NCBI GenBank assembly: GCA_024695565.1
Contig: JAILHX010000035.1
Span: forward strand, 1-38,233
Source: Saccharofermentans sp.
GTDB lineage: Bacteria; Bacillota_A; Clostridia; Saccharofermentanales; Saccharofermentanaceae
Length of the DNA: 38,233 nucleotides
Direction: 5' to 3'
Below the pieces are notes generated by a model. That model was not told the DNA's origin, did no database searches, and saw nothing but the letters and a program-made list of their open reading frames with translations. Shown piece by piece: positions 13,135 to 26,425 of the stretch (its first letter is position 1; the number at the start of each line of letters is the position of its first letter). The translations under genes were made by a program, and so were the position numbers.

Positions 13135-14520
13135 TTATTCTTTTTTCTCGCCGGGTTGCTCTAATCCTGAAGTCAGGAGCTTTACCGCGATTGCGCATTC
13201 GATCCTCTTGCGGAAGATATCGCAGCCCATCTCGTAGATGCCGTTGATATCACCTGAAGCATGATAGGAATTGGCTGCGCAGCCACCGGAGCAGTAGAGC
13301 TTTGCCCAGCAGTCTCTGCACTCGGGACGGCTGTATGCGTTGCAGGAAGCAAACTTGTCCTGAAGCTCCAAGTTCTGTACGCCATCGTAGATAGAACCCA
13401 TCTTATATGCTTCGTCGCCTACGAACTGGTGGCAGGGATAGAGGTCACCCCAGGGAGTGACAGCCAGGTATTCCGTTCCGGAACCGCAGCCTGCTATCCT
13501 CTTGTAGATGCAGGGACCGCATGTGAGATCGAGCATATAGTGGTAGAAGGTGAAGGGTCTGCCTTCATTGTAGCGCTCGACCATAAGGCGGGCGAGTTCT
13601 TCGTACTGTTCGAAGACAGTAGGCAGATCTTCCTTTGTGATCGCAGAAGGGCTTGAAGGATCTGTAACAACGGGCTCCATGGAGAGCTCGGTGAATCCCA
13701 AGTCCAGCATCTGCCTGATATCGTTTACGAAGTCTATGTTGTGGTGCGTGAATGTTCCGCGCATGTAGTAGCTTAAGTTGCCGCGCTTTGCTACGAACTT
13801 CTGGAAGTTCGGAACGATCCTGTCGTAAGAACCGTTGCCTGCGTAATCGACACGGAACCTGTCATTGACTTCTTTACGGCCGTCCAGCGAGAGGACGACG
13901 TTATGCATCTCGCGGTTGGCGAACTCTGTGACTTCATCGTCAAGGAGAATGCCGTTTGTCGTGAGAGTGAAGCGGATATTCTTATTGTGGATCTTCTCCT
14001 GATTTCTGCCGTATTCAACGAGCTTCTTGCAGACGTCCCAGTTCATCAGTGGTTCGCCGCCGAAGAAGTCGATATCAAGATTCTTGTGGAAACCGGAATT
14101 CTCGATGAGGAAATCGATAGCTCTCTTTCCGACCTCATAGCTCATTATGGCGCGCTCGCCATGGTACTTGCCCTGGCTCGCGAAGCAGTAAGAACAGTTG
14201 AGGTTGCATGTGTGTGCAACGTGGAGGCACAAAGCCTTTATCTTGATGTTCTTCTTGCGGAAATCCTTTGCCAGATGTTCGTATTTGTCGGGAGCATAGA
14301 GCTTGCCTGCGGTCTTGAGGCTATCAATGTCGGCGATGCATTCTTCGGCATCTGCTCTGGAGATGCCGTGCTTGGCAATAGCTTTCTCGATTACTTCTTC
14401 CGCAGGTTCGTTCTCGTACCATTGGATCATGTCGTAAGCGACTTCATCAACCATATGGATAGAGCCCGAGTAGCAGTCGAGCACGATGTTAAGGCCGTCA
14501 AATTGGTAGCAGTGGATCAT
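13135..14520 (-). CDS. SCIFF ranthipeptide radical SAM maturase (SPASM)
   Basis: A 461-residue radical SAM/SPASM enzyme that installs Cys-derived thioether links in the SCIFF peptide encoded just upstream; CteB of Clostridium thermocellum is the characterised relative. The N-terminus has a RiPP-recognition-like segment (residues 1-~85). The radical SAM cluster is C105-x3-C109-x2-C112, followed by G-G-E-P at ~154-157. The C-terminal SPASM region carries many cysteines (334, 337, 345, 363, 393, 401, 404, 410, 414, 433), enough for two auxiliary [4Fe-4S] clusters. The opening M-I-H-C-Y-Q-F supports this start, although the ribosome site (GGAAACGAG) is weak. A terminator lies between it and the peptide gene, so its expression depends on readthrough. 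Confidence 0.93.
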   Translation of the reverse strand: MIHCYQFDGLNIVLDCYSGSIHMVDEVAYDMIQWYENEPAEEVIEKAIAKHGISRADAEECIADIDSLKTAGKLYAPDKYEHLAKDFRKKNIKIKALCLHVAHTCNLNCSYCFASQGKYHGERAIMSYEVGKRAIDFLIENSGFHKNLDIDFFGGEPLMNWDVCKKLVEYGRNQEKIHNKNIRFTLTTNGILLDDEVTEFANREMHNVVLSLDGRKEVNDRFRVDYAGNGSYDRIVPNFQKFVAKRGNLSYYMRGTFTHHNIDFVNDIRQMLDLGFTELSMEPVVTDPSSPSAITKEDLPTVFEQYEELARLMVERYNEGRPFTFYHYMLDLTCGPCIYKRIAGCGSGTEYLAVTPWGDLYPCHQFVGDEAYKMGSIYDGVQNLELQDKFASCNAYSRPECRDCWAKLYCSGGCAANSYHASGDINGIYEMGCDIFRKRIECAIAVKLLTSGLEQPGEKKE

Positions 14521-16283: not shown

Positions 16284-17129
16284 TCAGCTCGGATTGATAA
16301 CTGTGAAGCTGTAGCCTGATACAACATCAGCATCCTCGTAGATTGACTTCTGCATCTGGAGAGCAGTGGAGAGGAGGAGTGTGTAAGGTGAGAGCTTGCC
16401 GCCTAAGAGTTCAACATCTGAACCGTAGCTGATAGCCTGAGCCTCGTCGTCAGAAAGAAGCATGTACTGGGAAACGAGGAAGAGGGATCTTACGCCAACG
16501 TTCATGTGAACGAGCTTGCTGTTGATCGAATATGTAGGATTTGAGCTGGAAGAAGAACCGGACAATCTGCTGCTGAATGAAAGACCCAGAGTAGATGTGC
16601 TGCCCAAAGAGCTGGACTCTTCCTGGATGAAGAGAGGCTTGCCTTCGATACCGACCTTACCGACTTCGTGGAAGAGGGCGATGATGATAGCTGACTCCTC
16701 ATCAAGCTGAGGCATGATCGTATCCTTGATTCTCAAGAGCTGCTTAGCTACTGCAACGCTTCTGATGAGAAGTCCCTTCTCGCAGGCGAGAGGTCCCTTA
16801 ACCTCAGCAGGAGCTGTAAGCCAGGATGTTCTGTTCTCGAGGAAATCGATGAAGTGATCGAACTCTGTCTTTCTCTTAACGATAGCTGCCTTAAGCTGCT
16901 CATAAAGAGTGTCAACGTTATCCTTATTAACTTCGATCATCGGCATAATACCGGCAACCTTATCAGACTTGCCTGTAGCTGCTGCTGATACAGCTGCTGC
17001 CTGAGGTGTCACTACTGCAGAATCACTGCCGCCTGCACCTTCGTCTGCTGATGTGAATGTATACTTACATTTAGGGCATCTGATAGCCTGGTTGGCAATG
17101 ACCATACCGCAATCTGGACATTTCTTCAT
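16284..17129 (-). CDS. Zinc-ribbon protein with degenerate HD-hydrolase domain
   Basis: A ~281-residue cytosolic protein. The start is the ATG at 17129 behind AGGAGGT; the longer frame to 17159 adds 10 residues without a ribosome site. Residues 4-21 form a zinc ribbon (C4, C7, C18, C21). After an Ala/Ser linker, residues ~85-260 resemble the HD-type hydrolase family common in phages and Firmicutes (T-A-P-A near 105, E-K-G-L-L near 117, F-H-E-V-G-K at 153-158, L-S-D-D-E-A-Q-A-I-S near 225). The usual H-D is H-E, the first histidine position reads I-R-S, and the late R-W-H motif reads S-Y-G, so the metal site appears lost. A Ser-rich stretch (residues ~171-200) interrupts it. Likely a binding or scaffold role. 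Confidence 0.68.
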   Translation of the reverse strand: MKKCPDCGMVIANQAIRCPKCKYTFTSADEGAGGSDSAVVTPQAAAVSAAATGKSDKVAGIMPMIEVNKDNVDTLYEQLKAAIVKRKTEFDHFIDFLENRTSWLTAPAEVKGPLACEKGLLIRSVAVAKQLLRIKDTIMPQLDEESAIIIALFHEVGKVGIEGKPLFIQEESSSLGSTSTLGLSFSSRLSGSSSSSNPTYSINSKLVHMNVGVRSLFLVSQYMLLSDDEAQAISYGSDVELLGGKLSPYTLLLSTALQMQKSIYEDADVVSGYSFTVINPS

Positions 17130-17185
17130 GATTGTGACCTCCTGATTTTGCGGGCGCATAGAACCGCAAAGATAATTGTTACTTC

Positions 17186-17269: not shown

Positions 17270-17288
17270 TTTACACCTTCGAAAATAA

Positions 17289-17339
17289 AAGACACTGACG
17301 AGGGGGTGTCAGTGTCTTAAGGAGGGTGTTATGAAGTAA
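17289..17339 (+). promoter_or_regulatory. Leader hairpin followed by a strong RBS and a two-codon ORF
   Basis: AAGACACTGAC (17289-17299) and GTCAGTGTCTT (17308-17318) form a perfect 11-bp hairpin. Immediately after it come AAGGAGGG and ATG AAG TAA (17331-17339). The ATG has the best ribosome site in the region but its frame stops after two codons. The same frame reopens at the TTG at 17352, whose own weaker site (AAGGAA) overlaps the stop. This could be a regulatory minigene or a nonsense mutation in the original start region. Confidence 0.6.
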
Positions 17340-17351
17340 GGAACAATTACT

Positions 17352-17723
17352 TTGAACAACCATATATTAACACGCCCAATATTTACTTTAAGATTCAAAA
17401 AAGGCAAAATAGTGGCAAAGAAATCACTAATTTGGGGAGGAATTGAAGGTTTGACTCTGGAAGGCAGACTTTTTGTCGCAAACAGAATGACCGAGATCAA
17501 GACGGTCACGACTGAGGATTCAGACCCCTCCTATGCCAAATGCCTGGAAATTGCGCTAATTGAGCTTTGCAGACAGCTCGATATCCCTGTTCCCATGTGG
17601 ATGAAGAAGAATACCAAGGAATTTGCGGCTTTCGGCCAGACGATCTTTTTCCGTGAACAGTACACGGAGCAGGTCAGATTCGACAGATTCCAGATAAGAG
17701 TTACTGACGGGGCAGACAGCTGA
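17352..17723 (+). CDS. Conserved-looking small protein of unknown function
   Basis: A 123-residue soluble protein starting at a TTG behind AAGGAA (17338-17343). It begins L-N-N-H-I-L-T-R-P-I-F-T-L-R-F and has a basic early part (K-K-G-K-I-V-A-K-K), a helix with C-L-E-I-A-L-I-E-L-C-R-Q-L near residues 65-78 and a charged end (Y-T-E-Q-V-R-F-D-R-F). I recognise no catalytic motif and no membrane segment. The next gene begins one base after its stop, so it is coupled to the large surface-modifying fusion protein. An in-frame ATG upstream (17331) is cut off by a TAA, so the natural start may have been longer. Confidence 0.75.
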   Translation: MNNHILTRPIFTLRFKKGKIVAKKSLIWGGIEGLTLEGRLFVANRMTEIKTVTTEDSDPSYAKCLEIALIELCRQLDIPVPMWMKKNTKEFAAFGQTIFFREQYTEQVRFDRFQIRVTDGADS

Positions 17724-17724
17724 T

Positions 17725-20655
17725 ATGACTGTTGGCGTAATCGGGAACAAAGAGCGCAGCGCTTACTGGGACAATATCAAGGGCTTTCTGATACTGCTCG
17801 TAGTCTTCGGACATGTCCTTTATAAGCTTCAGACCGCATCGCCCATTATCAATACGACAGTTGATAACATATACATGTTCCATATGCCCGCCTTCATATT
17901 TGTGTCGGGTTATTTTGGCAAGAGCGAGCGCTCGAGAAGCTTTGAGAGCATTATCAAGCTCATCTTCCTGTTCTTTATCTTCAACAGCATTACGATGTTT
18001 ATAGAAGGTTATACAGCTTATCTTCAGCCTATCTATTCGTATTGGTATCTTATAGCACTTATCGTTTGGAGACTTACGGCTCACCATATCGCCAAGTTCA
18101 AGTTCATTAATCCCATCCTGATCGTTATAGCCCTGATAATAGGATTCTTCCCGGCTGTCGATAACCATTTTGCAGCTGCAAGGATAATCGGATTCTATCC
18201 TTTCTATATGCTCGGATATCAGCTGAGTGAAGAGAAGAACAGCGCTTTTGTCAGCAGGGAATACTGGAAGCGGGCCATAATCGGAGCAGTCCTGCTCTTT
18301 TCTGCAGAGATATCTGCCTTTGCATCAACACTTCTATTCTCATACAAGAACGGTGCGTTCGAATTAGAACCTTATGAGAGACCGATGGATTTTCTCGGGA
18401 GGAGCGTTTTCTTCATCATCGCGATCCTCATGATCTATGCAATCAGATGTTTTGCTCCCGATAAGAAGATCCCGTTCCTTACGGAGTTCGGCCGCAACTC
18501 ATTGTGGATCTTCGTATTCCACAGACTGTTTACCCTCTGGATCGGTGAAGCATTAAGATACTATCCGGTCATGTTTGTAATGGGGGTAGCTCTTTTATCC
18601 GCATTCATCATCAGCTTTGCGTTTGGCAATGACTTCTTCTGCAAGTTCTTCAACAGGTTCCTTCAGTCCGGTGCAGAGGTATTCACAGGAGACAATAAGA
18701 AGATCACATTTGCCAAGATCGTTTCTCTCCTCGTAGCTATTGGATTTGCAGTCGTTGCAATATTCAATTCGATCAATCTTTTAAAGCCGCAGGAATCTTC
18801 TGATGATCAGATCCCCGACAGCGATCCTCAGGCGGACATCATGTATCCTGCCATGACTGATACGCAGAAAGAATCTTTTGATAACGCTTTCCGGATCACT
18901 TTTGCAGGCGACCTGATCCTATTGGAAGACCAGGTAAACCTTGGATTTACGGGCGATGGATATGATTTTACGGATGTTTTCGAAAACGCTGAACCTTATA
19001 TATCTTCAGCGGACATGGCGATCGGTGTTTTCGAGGGCCCGATGGCAGGAGCAGACAAGGGCTATTCGACCGGCAATTACGATGACGGCAAAGAGCTCTA
19101 CTTAAACTTCCCCGATGAGTTCGGTATGGCTGTTAAGAACGCCGGCTTCGATCTTGTCACGACAGCTAACAATCATATGCTGGATAAGGGCGAAGAGGGT
19201 GCTCTAAGAACGCTGGACGTTATGGACGATATCGGCCTTGATCATACCGGTTCTTACAGGAATCAGGCTGAGAAGGACAGCAGCAGGGTTAAGATCGTTG
19301 AGGTCCAGGGCATAAAGTTTGCCGTGCTCTCATATACGTTCGGAAGCAATTACACCGAAACGGAAGACCTGATTGACGGTCAGTATTCTTACATGACATC
19401 AATAATCCGGGGCACCGAAGGCGAAGAGTTCGATCAGCTGAAGGCAAGCGTTGAAGAAGACTTTAAGGCGGCCAGATCTCTTGATCCCGACCTCATCATC
19501 GTGCTCCCTCATCTCGGAACGCAGTTCTTAAACCAGCCTGATGAGACGCAGACAGTCTGGTTTGAGATATTCAAGGAGAACGGCGCCGACATTATCCTGG
19601 GCGACCATCCTCATGTTGTAGAACCTGCATCAATAGAAAATTACGGCGGCAGGAATGTGTTTACCGCATACTGCCCGGGAAACTTTGCCAACGTTTACCG
19701 TGAGCATCAGGGCGACACGAGCATGCTCGTAGATGTCTATATCGACCGCGATTCGAAGGAAGTCATCGGAGGAAGCGTTGTTCCTCTCTACACTTATGCT
19801 CCTGCAGACGGCAATTACAAGGCAGTACCGGTTTACGAGATAATGAACAATCCGAAAGTCCGTTCGGAACTTACCGTAGACGATATGAAACGCGCTTCTA
19901 TTGCAAATGAGATAGTTACGCGCGTAGTCTTCGGCGATCCGATGGATATCAGTTCCGTAACCGAGAGATATTACTTCGATGAGAACGGCTTTATCCGTTC
20001 GAAGAATGAGGGTTTGGAGTTAACTGATGAGATGGCAGGCGGAACGCTTTACGGCGCCATGCAGAATGCAGGCAGCATCTGCTTTATCGGCGACAGCATC
20101 ACCGAAGGCACCAAGAACGGCGGATGTCCCTGGTATGAACCGATCGAAGCGTTCTTCCCGGATAAGACGATCCTCAACTACTCGAAGGGCAGCTGCACGG
20201 TGTCTTATATGCTTGACCGTATCGACCAGATTCCTGAAGCTGATCTCTATGTGATCGCGCTTGGCACGAACGATGTGCGCTACAGGGATGACAGCGTATG
20301 CGCAATGACGTCAGACGAATATATAAAGAGACTAAACGAACTGAAGGATCAGCTGGCTGCAAAGTCACCTGATGCCAAGTTCGTATTTATCGCCCCCTGG
20401 TATTCGATCGACGGCGATCCTTTCTGCAGTCTGTCTTTTGCCGAGAAGACCGCTCTTAATGAAGAATATTCCGCAGCGCTCGAAAAGTACTGCTCGGACA
20501 ATTCCTTCATCTACATAAATGCCAACGGATTTATCAGCGACCGTCTGAAGCAGGCTTCCGCCGGAACATATCTGCTTGACCACATTCATCCGAATGCCAC
20601 CAACGGAGTCGTCATGTATTCGGAAGCCGTGCTCTTGTCCGGCAAAGACGACTGA
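17725..20655 (+). CDS. Acyltransferase-3 / CapA / SGNH hydrolase tri-domain membrane protein
   Basis: A 976-residue protein with three domains. Residues 1-~355 are an acyltransferase-3 membrane domain of the fucose-4-O-acetylase-like type (Y-W-D-N-I-K-G-F-L-I, catalytic-type His in V-V-F-G-H at residue 30, about ten helices). Residues ~388-720 match CapA/PgsA (F-A-G-D-L, A-N-N-H-M-L-D-K-G, L-P-H-L-G, G-D-H-P-H-V). Residues ~784-970 are an SGNH hydrolase with all blocks: G-D-S-I-T, the block II Gly, L-G-T-N-D, and D-H-I-H-P near 951. AT3-SGNH proteins O-acylate surface polysaccharides; an inserted CapA domain suggests action on a polymer carrying amide-linked residues. No strong ribosome site is visible; it follows the small upstream gene by one base. 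Confidence 0.88.
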   Translation: MTVGVIGNKERSAYWDNIKGFLILLVVFGHVLYKLQTASPIINTTVDNIYMFHMPAFIFVSGYFGKSERSRSFESIIKLIFLFFIFNSITMFIEGYTAYLQPIYSYWYLIALIVWRLTAHHIAKFKFINPILIVIALIIGFFPAVDNHFAAARIIGFYPFYMLGYQLSEEKNSAFVSREYWKRAIIGAVLLFSAEISAFASTLLFSYKNGAFELEPYERPMDFLGRSVFFIIAILMIYAIRCFAPDKKIPFLTEFGRNSLWIFVFHRLFTLWIGEALRYYPVMFVMGVALLSAFIISFAFGNDFFCKFFNRFLQSGAEVFTGDNKKITFAKIVSLLVAIGFAVVAIFNSINLLKPQESSDDQIPDSDPQADIMYPAMTDTQKESFDNAFRITFAGDLILLEDQVNLGFTGDGYDFTDVFENAEPYISSADMAIGVFEGPMAGADKGYSTGNYDDGKELYLNFPDEFGMAVKNAGFDLVTTANNHMLDKGEEGALRTLDVMDDIGLDHTGSYRNQAEKDSSRVKIVEVQGIKFAVLSYTFGSNYTETEDLIDGQYSYMTSIIRGTEGEEFDQLKASVEEDFKAARSLDPDLIIVLPHLGTQFLNQPDETQTVWFEIFKENGADIILGDHPHVVEPASIENYGGRNVFTAYCPGNFANVYREHQGDTSMLVDVYIDRDSKEVIGGSVVPLYTYAPADGNYKAVPVYEIMNNPKVRSELTVDDMKRASIANEIVTRVVFGDPMDISSVTERYYFDENGFIRSKNEGLELTDEMAGGTLYGAMQNAGSICFIGDSITEGTKNGGCPWYEPIEAFFPDKTILNYSKGSCTVSYMLDRIDQIPEADLYVIALGTNDVRYRDDSVCAMTSDEYIKRLNELKDQLAAKSPDAKFVFIAPWYSIDGDPFCSLSFAEKTALNEEYSAALEKYCSDNSFIYINANGFISDRLKQASAGTYLLDHIHPNATNGVVMYSEAVLLSGKDD

Positions 20656-20668
20656 AGGTATTGATCTC

Positions 20669-21919
20669 GTGGGCGGGGATAAGCTTAAGATCGGCATTAT
20701 CGGAGGCGGCGCGTCAGGACTTTTTACTGCATGCCAGCTTAAAAAGCTTGGCGGGAACAGAAATATCGAAGTTACCATATTGGAGAGAAATTCCATTCCC
20801 GGCAAAAAGCTTACCCTGACAGGACACGGCAGATGCAACATCACCAACCGCAAGGATGCGCAAGAACTTAAGAACTGTTACCACGAAGCAGGCAATTTCC
20901 TGTATCCCGCGCTCAAGGAGTTCGGTCCTGAAGATACGATCTCATTCATGGAAAAAGATCTCGGGATGAAACTCAAAGAAGAGGATAACAACAGGATGTT
21001 CCCCGTCTCAGACAGTGCCGTTGCCGTAAGAGATGCGATCGTTTCCTACTTAAAGGACAGCACCAAGATCGTATGTGATGCGAAGGTCGCAGCTATAAAT
21101 AAGACTTCTGAATTCGAAGTCGAGACTACCAAAGGAAGATTCTGCTTCGATTACGTTGTCCTGGCCTGCGGCGGAAGCTCGTTCCCCAAGACCGGATCGG
21201 ACGGTGATTCATATAAGTTTGCAGGGAACCTCGGTCATACGATCATCCCCATAAGAGGAGCGCTGGCACCCATTAAGGCAGACAGCGGAGCGGTATCATT
21301 TACTTCGGCATTAAGCGGCGTATCCATGAATATCAAAGTATCACTTATCGTGTCAGACAAGGTTACTGCATCTGTCAGGGGAGAAGTGCTGTTTGCAGAA
21401 TTCGGTCTCACGGGACCTTCTATTATGGAGATATCAAGAGAGATACCGGCTGATATAACAGGCGAGGATTCCTGGCTTGAATTAGACCTGATCCCCTCAA
21501 TGAGTGACGAACAATTTGACAGTGAACTCTTAACATCGATTGGAAGGCATTCCGACACAAAGATTACCACTCTTATCGCCAGATACATTCCTGCTTCAGT
21601 GGCAGCAGAAGTCGCAAAAAGAGCAGGTGTTTCTGATCTCTACGCACAGGGCTTTACCAGGGATAACCGCAAGAACCTCTGCCGCATGATCAAGCATCTT
21701 AAGATAGGTATAGCAGGTGTACCGGATCTTGATAAGGCTTATGTCACAAGAGGCGGCGTGTCTCTTAAGGAAGTTGACCGCAAGACCATGAGGTCCAAAC
21801 TTGTCGAAGGCCTTTATATCGTCGGCGAGGCGCTCGATATCGACGGCATCAGCGGCGGCTTCAATCTCCAGGCCTGCATGAGCGAAGGATACTTAGCAGC
21901 CAAAGACATTCTTAAATAG
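20669..21919 (+). CDS. YhiN/HI0933-family FAD-dependent oxidoreductase
   Basis: A ~416-residue flavoprotein of the BaiN/YhiN/HI0933 family. The FAD-binding start is I-G-I-I-G-G-G-A-S-G-L, then the family motif G-H-G-R-C-N-I-T-N, C-G-G-S-S-F-P-K-T-G-S-D-G near residue 170, and the C-terminal G-E-A-L-D-I-D-G-I-S-G-G-F-N-L-Q that closes the FAD site. I chose the GTG at 20669, preceded by GAAGG at 20654-20658; the frame upstream lies inside the end of the previous gene. The gap to that gene is 13 bases, so they are probably cotranscribed. The physiological substrate of most members is unknown; some gut relatives act on bile-acid intermediates. Confidence 0.9.
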   Translation: MGGDKLKIGIIGGGASGLFTACQLKKLGGNRNIEVTILERNSIPGKKLTLTGHGRCNITNRKDAQELKNCYHEAGNFLYPALKEFGPEDTISFMEKDLGMKLKEEDNNRMFPVSDSAVAVRDAIVSYLKDSTKIVCDAKVAAINKTSEFEVETTKGRFCFDYVVLACGGSSFPKTGSDGDSYKFAGNLGHTIIPIRGALAPIKADSGAVSFTSALSGVSMNIKVSLIVSDKVTASVRGEVLFAEFGLTGPSIMEISREIPADITGEDSWLELDLIPSMSDEQFDSELLTSIGRHSDTKITTLIARYIPASVAAEVAKRAGVSDLYAQGFTRDNRKNLCRMIKHLKIGIAGVPDLDKAYVTRGGVSLKEVDRKTMRSKLVEGLYIVGEALDIDGISGGFNLQACMSEGYLAAKDILK

Positions 21920-26280: not shown

Positions 26281-26425
26281 GCCCGTCCCGCCCGAACTGC
26301 CGTCGGTAAGGCTTGACCCGCGGCGCACTCCGTAAACCGCTTACTGCTGCTTCCTTCCGGACCTGACAGGGTTCACAGCCCGAAATCGCACGGGACCTTG
26401 GCCGGCGGCAGACCGCGCGGGACGA
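26281..26425 (-). ncRNA. ffs: Signal recognition particle RNA
   Basis: The minus strand contains the invariant SRP apical loop region, G-T-C-A-G-G-T-C-C-G-G-A-A-G-G-A-A-G-C-A, at about 26344-26370. The ends pair: GTCCCGC near 26423 with GCGGGAC near 26285, and CTGCCG with CGGCAG inside. The transcript is ~145 bases and ends in GGGCTTTTTATTTT. Placement directly upstream of dnaX is the usual Firmicutes order. A TATAAT on the minus strand (26447-26452) may be its promoter; the 5' end is therefore approximate. SRP RNA with Ffh targets membrane proteins. Confidence 0.95.

Follow-up and report, generated by a model that had tools for sequence, protein, structure and literature searches.

The 38,233-nucleotide stretch analysed here (the window; contig JAILHX010000035.1 of a Saccharofermentans sp.) encodes a 976-residue protein that joins an acyltransferase-3 (AT3) membrane domain, a CapA-type metalloenzyme and an SGNH domain in one chain. 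This three-domain protein, hereafter the fusion, belongs to a conserved protein family of gut Clostridia. Our preferred reading, to which we give an even chance, is that the fusion works in the cell envelope as an O-acyltransferase that largely suffices by itself, acting on a surface polymer and carrying a built-in metal-dependent CapA enzyme. No paper on the three-domain protein, and no function for the family, was found in a literature search made mostly without subscription papers; a preprint on a bile-salt hydrolase proved to be a false lead. The gene and its parts are as follows.

17725..20655, plus strand: AT3-CapA-SGNH fusion gene, 976 residues, ATG start (open reading frame list, Pfam and homologues)
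17761..18621, plus strand: acyltransferase-3 membrane domain, residues 13-299, with the motif K19-X10-H30
18709..18783, plus strand: membrane-length helix, residues 329-353 (AlphaFold2 secondary structure; position as in AT3-SGNH proteins, PMC9558356)
18781..18834, plus strand: flexible tether, residues 353-370 (predicted local confidence, pLDDT, below 50)
18880..19998, plus strand: CapA/calcineurin-like metalloenzyme domain, residues 386-758, with D396, E437, N483, H484, D487, H596, H628 and H630
20065..20649, plus strand: SGNH hydrolase/transferase domain, residues 781-975, with S791, G822, N849, D952 and H955

As the initial annotation had proposed, all three domains exceed their Pfam cut-offs within the one chain: Acyl_transf_3 (PF01757) at residues 13-299 (62.7 bits versus a cut-off of 31), PGA_cap (PF09587) at 391-656 (179.7 versus 27) and the GDSL/SGNH family Lipase_GDSL_2 at 787-958 (62.7 versus 32.9). 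CapA and SGNH both lie where they had been predicted, which removes the objection that profile searches might fail to find them. An artefact of a mis-joined contig, the other objection raised at that stage, is ruled out by the breadth of the family. Searching 5.8 billion proteins yielded 537 homologues, and all 120 of those listed carry the same three domains; near-full-length copies (38-71% identity) occur in 27 of the 115 genomes of one family, where the end of a contig truncates a further copy (G101). A scan of genome contigs located the fusion at 11 loci with source titles of Saccharofermentans, Ruminococcus, Oscillospiraceae and uncultured Clostridia. Wider scans matched 7 of 394 genomes of the order to which another genome belongs (E 1e-100, a count that includes this central genome) and 4 of 391 at class level (E 1e-80), three of which were already among the earlier finds. 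The gene is interrupted by an in-frame stop or frame breaks in G008 (L008), G011 (L011) and G151 (L100), where assembly error is possible. A stop flagged as an interruption in G256 was rejected, being the gene's own end.

Residue conservation was assessed in an alignment of 151 proteins, 149 of them distinct, comprising the window protein, 30 genome copies and 120 database matches, with four broken or partial copies left out. The database rows are the best matches of the 537, so the counts lean to close relatives. All 14 tested positions (H30 in AT3 and the CapA and SGNH residues listed above) are kept in 147 of the 151, and the exceptions (G015, G076, P0004 and P0094) each differ at one or two, bearing out the earlier statement that the SGNH catalytic blocks and CapA histidine motifs are intact. 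Seven of the eight metal or catalytic positions of CapA are identical in every row and the eighth in 150. In the AT3 domain, K19 is present in 144 of 144 filled rows (seven are gapped) and H30 in all 151. In pairwise comparisons of 65 aligned proteins, identity averages 64% for CapA, 57% for SGNH and 50% for AT3; CapA is thus the most conserved domain of the fusion.

The architecture resembles that of the AT3-SGNH O-acyltransferases OafA, OafB and OatA, with which the fusion shares an N-terminal AT3 domain, the R/K-X10-H motif in its first helix, an eleventh helix and a C-terminal SGNH domain with its S, G, N and D/H residues. The motif is defined as R/K-X10-H, so that the K-X10-H form is allowed (PMC9558356), and transmembrane helix 11 (TMH11) sits between AT3 and the ectodomain (PMC9558356), as does the modelled helix 329-353, which we take as the eleventh helix leading outside. 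In contrast to the short linker from TMH11 to SGNH in those proteins, a CapA fold of about 370 residues (386-758) intervenes here. NCBIfam returned only partial matches far below cut-off, to NolL and MdoC in the AT3 part and to MslH.

On our preferred reading, the AT3 domain would accept an acyl group from acyl-CoA in the cytoplasm, most probably acetyl, and pass it across the membrane, and the SGNH domain would then place it on a hydroxyl of the surface polymer, as in OafA/OatA-type proteins. The complete CapA-type metalloenzyme between the eleventh helix and SGNH, predicted to pack against SGNH as a rigid head, would most likely hydrolyse a phosphoester, or a bond akin to it, in that polymer or in the lipid-linked precursor, by which trimming and acylation would be coupled. 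The domains, the conserved residues and the folds are computed results, as is, at the level of a prediction, the rigid head; acyl donor, transfer step, metal occupancy, topology and CapA chemistry are what we infer; the substrate is a guess, and the present data accommodate either hydrolysis or epimerisation by CapA. The suggestion of the initial annotation that the protein may add acyl groups at the surface is upheld as its likely core activity. A more specific proposal, which we hold to be rather improbable, is a coupled two-step editor of a surface polymer, encoded all in one by a mobile single gene: CapA and an acyl-transferring SGNH site, held in one rigid extracytoplasmic head, would act in turn on the same polymer with acyl groups fed by the protein's own membrane channel. 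Peptidoglycan would be a leading candidate, of which SGNH may acetylate a sugar while CapA edits a peptide or phosphoester.

The AlphaFold2 model is confident, with a predicted template modelling score (pTM) of 0.89 for the CapA-SGNH part alone versus 0.61 for the full chain, which suggests that CapA and SGNH form one rigid two-enzyme head on a flexible tether. The AT3 part has an HGSNAT-like fold. For CapA, D396, N483, H484/D487, H596 and H630 correspond by motif to the YmdB residues (PMC10406935), namely Asp8, Asn67, His150, His177 and the catalytic pair His68/Asp71 (PMC10406935). The lasso-peptide epimerase MslH (PDB 8gq9), a CapA-family protein, shares the calcineurin-like fold over residues 386-754 and the NH..D motif, and its calcium ligands E44, N87 and H259 correspond by motif to E437, N483 and H596. 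Other metal ligands appear to differ, and the fusion is membrane-tethered: the position of the MslH ligand His261 is taken by G598, and H628 is aligned with an MslH glycine, although that stretch of the alignment scores only 1.4 bits. Given this pattern, the CapA site looks like the two-metal type. The second, conserved metalloenzyme in the chain offers a route to the substrate: CapA is predicted to be soluble, is confidently modelled and can be assayed alone.

Several observations weigh against the preferred reading. The RXXR motif described for the first cytoplasmic loop of other AT3 proteins is mostly absent from the fusion family; it is missing from the window protein and occurs within residues 60-85 in 19 of 151 rows. 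Membrane topology was read from the AlphaFold2 helices, and metals lie outside the model. Among the fold matches listed, to which all our fold comparisons refer, the top match to CapA is an epimerase and not a phosphoesterase, and the closest SGNH folds are esterases, including acetylxylan esterases and other acetylesterases, by analogy with which the SGNH domain may deacylate. One relative (G080, L061:7983-9059, minus strand) has, between the same two flanking genes as in the window, AT3 plus the eleventh helix without CapA or SGNH; this may be a natural truncation or an AT3-only form. A MatE transporter is a possible partner of the fusion: Pfam confirmed MatE in the four members scanned, of which those in G008, G215 and G151 adjoin the three-domain gene and the one in G098 lies two genes off. 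Finally, MurD-CapA fusions in six genomes that carry the three-domain gene, with the two parts side by side in two more, point to peptide chemistry for the CapA relatives.

The MurD-CapA proteins bear on what the CapA domain does. MurD2/MurL provides a ligase-plus-epimerase route to D-glutamate in peptidoglycan, and by analogy MurD-CapA is possibly such a route. In G098 the MurD-CapA gene adjoins the three-domain gene (L046:5687-8086, minus strand), with 262.4 bits against NCBIfam murD (cut-off 211.95) and 164.6 bits against Pfam PGA_cap. We examined 39 genomes of relatives of the window, 38 with a fusion copy, intact or broken, plus the AT3-only genome G080. MurD-CapA is full-length in six (G098, G102, G108, G112, G115 and G117), is split into two adjacent genes in G060 and G061, and is matched by its MurD part alone in six more (G007, G008, G009, G011, G256 and G279); only in G098 does it lie beside the three-domain gene. 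Like the three-domain protein, with which it shares some host genomes, MurD-CapA couples CapA to an enzyme of the envelope, but its partner is a Mur ligase and not AT3 with SGNH. Ten further CapA proteins scanned in related genomes carry DUF4214 repeats, DUF6270 or no further domain; together with the MurD combination, this indicates that CapA is joined to various partners in these bacteria. Because MurD-CapA adjoins the fusion in G098, we gave less weight to the preferred reading and more to the alternative, still unlikely, that CapA works like the epimerase MslH on the end of a peptide, such as the peptidoglycan stem peptide, while AT3-SGNH acetylates the sugar as OatA does. The two-metal-like site, with the MslH substitutions and the alignment limit given above, argues against an epimerase, as does an identity of only 23% between the CapA domains of MurD-CapA and the fusion.

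The CapA family is known mostly from poly-gamma-glutamate, and the initial annotation had accordingly suggested an amide-linked polymer that CapA helps make or process and that AT3-SGNH also acylates. The PGA_cap family assignment, a domain shared with CapA/PgsA, and the Mur-ligase/CapA neighbour in G098 speak for this, Mur ligases being kin of PgsB. However, neither PgsB (TIGR04012) nor CapC (PF14102) exceeded its cut-off in any of the 39 genomes, whose completeness is not given, whereas the B. subtilis control was positive; below cut-off, PgsB matched in 11 and CapC in one. Moreover, the G098 neighbour passes the MurD cut-off and elsewhere sits on another contig than the fusion, CapA-like proteins match in 7 of 14 control genomes, and the fusion is anchored by AT3. 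Since PgsB and CapC are lacking above cut-off, poly-gamma-glutamate is unlikely as the polymer and we consider this explanation highly improbable, although some peptide chemistry would still be compatible with the data; the fusion thus gives CapA a setting without poly-gamma-glutamate machinery. It is also doubtful that the protein is an esterase of the cell surface that removes acetyl groups from plant polysaccharide of the diet, AT3 recycling the acyl groups and CapA releasing phosphate. The esterase folds nearest to SGNH, including acetylxylan esterases, and the ruminant or deer gut named in the source titles of several fusion loci would suit such a role; in contrast to Axe2-type acetylxylan esterases, SGNH is here tethered to AT3 and CapA. 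Against it, the AT3 domain with K-X10-H and an eleventh helix has the layout of transferases, whose SGNH domains show esterase activity too (PMC9558356), and the neighbour clusters examined contain no recurring gene for carbohydrate use. Lastly, CapA could be a catalytically idle spacer that binds substrate while the acyltransferase alone works: simulated OafB touches the acceptor with SGNH-ext, the segment that links TMH11 to SGNH (PMC9833829), and by that precedent a spacer there could set specificity. The near-invariance of the eight CapA positions, in what is the most conserved domain, makes this quite improbable.

Among neighbour clusters over 36 fusion loci we found no constant operon partner, and most clusters follow small clades; an ABC-transporter cluster touches seven loci and the MatE cluster six, both large families in mixed contexts. 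As no single neighbour follows the gene through its contexts, the fusion probably needs no fixed partner. In G033, a separate AT3-only gene (PF01757, 103.6 bits) adjoins the fusion at L052:6916-7971 (minus strand).

In the window the fusion stands between two core genes, preceded by a conserved promoter-like element and a divergent RNA candidate.

17286-17365, minus strand: candidate small regulatory RNA of about 80 nucleotides, divergent from the small-gene operon (covariation and conservation)
17380..17420, plus strand: promoter-like element ahead of the small gene, conserved (24 of 24 genomes)
17451..17723, plus strand: small core gene, 90 residues from TTG 17451 (109 of 115 genomes)
20669..21919, plus strand: YhiN/HI0933-like flavoprotein gene, probable start GTG 20669 (PF03486, TIGR00275)

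The small upstream gene described in the initial annotation is real, but probably shorter than the 123 residues given there: many matches in relatives begin near residue 33, and TTG 17451 is the probable start because the first ~33 codons, which overlie a conserved non-coding element, contain stops or frame changes in many relatives. The YhiN flavoprotein 13 bases after the fusion stop is confirmed by its PF03486 and TIGR00275 matches. The suggestion that these genes form a three-gene surface-modification unit, in contrast, did not hold. We surveyed the small gene-YhiN junction in the 30 best-matching of the 109 genomes with the small gene: 21 junctions are empty, seven hold the fusion, one holds the AT3-only form and one lacks YhiN. 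With the small gene core and the fusion found beside other neighbours elsewhere, the fusion has been inserted as one gene between two others that are core. At 16 of the 21 empty sites the stop codon of the small gene and the likely start of YhiN share bases in the sequence TGATG, from which the tight coupling noted in the initial annotation probably predates the fusion.

A quick tree of flank proteins (29 genomes plus the window) requires at least eight changes between filled and empty sites, against a shuffled mean of 8.1; six of the changes are forced by starred branches. Judging by these sequences, either the fusion came or went here repeatedly or the flanks recombine. In a quick tree of the fusion itself (36 rows), the window protein pairs as sister with that of G001 (SH-aLRT 100), a gene at a different locus, and a starred clade of 13 rows mixes eight copies at the window locus with five at others. 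By modifying peptidoglycan and the glycans of the surface, AT3-SGNH proteins affect immune response, lysozyme resistance and phage interaction (PMC7448272, PMC9558356). That closely related genomes differ in having the fusion at this one junction would fit a trait of the surface on which selection changes, with phages as one possible agent.

The promoter-like element consists of a GTTTAC-type box, about 16 bases, GGCAAAATA, and GGCAAA repeated after 11 bases, and resembles forespore sigma promoters. Allowing at most one mismatch, 23 of 24 genomes have a single copy and G001 has two, where the second copy precedes the fusion; a reversed control pattern gave one match, and a scan of viral contigs gave none for the element. 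Its presence upstream of the G001 fusion suggests that this gene moved out together with the small-gene promoter. Scanning upstream of 32 fusion copies at other loci, we obtained a strong motif score only in G001 (39.4), followed by G036 (5.6), G034 (-4.0), G117 (-5.9), G064 and G151 (-7.3) and lower values for the rest; against random sequence (99% level -7.3, maximum 4.0), the scores are meaningful in G001 and perhaps in G036.

The neighbouring segment 17286-17365 reads as a candidate minus-strand small RNA. It is near-identical in the window and nine relatives whose YhiN shares only 64-68% identity with the window's. Across 30 sequences, its terminator-like hairpin (17289-17318) shows changes on both sides in six of nine pairs; the covariation score was reached by none of 500 shuffles and the number of pair types by 103, in shuffles that ignore relatedness. 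The eight non-pairing plus-strand cells are all A-C or C-A, corresponding to U-G or G-U on the minus strand, which also has a T-rich tail after the hairpin. A 17-base stretch, ACTTCATAACACCCTCC, is identical in 30 of 30 sequences and is the complement of a ribosome-binding site (Shine-Dalgarno) plus AUG, and an upstream TGnTAnnAT is a possible extended -10. Within the order, 99 of 188 genomes match a model of the candidate, 94 of these with a single copy (the model's own sequences included), with weak matches in 2 of 40 other genomes; Rfam had no above-threshold match at 17286-17365, and one nematode snoRNA fell below cut-off. G061 carries four copies as two tandem pairs (C1:109795-110082 and C7:61534-61815).

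Three further features of the window were recorded.

13135-14520, minus strand: SCIFF peptide maturase (TIGR03974, 734 bits)
16284-17159, minus strand: 291-residue protein with no Pfam or NCBIfam match
26302-26402, minus strand: bacterial small signal recognition particle (SRP) RNA, adjoining dnaX (RNA family scan)

The 291-residue protein is 80-97% identical in relatives whose YhiN mostly shares only 62-71%.
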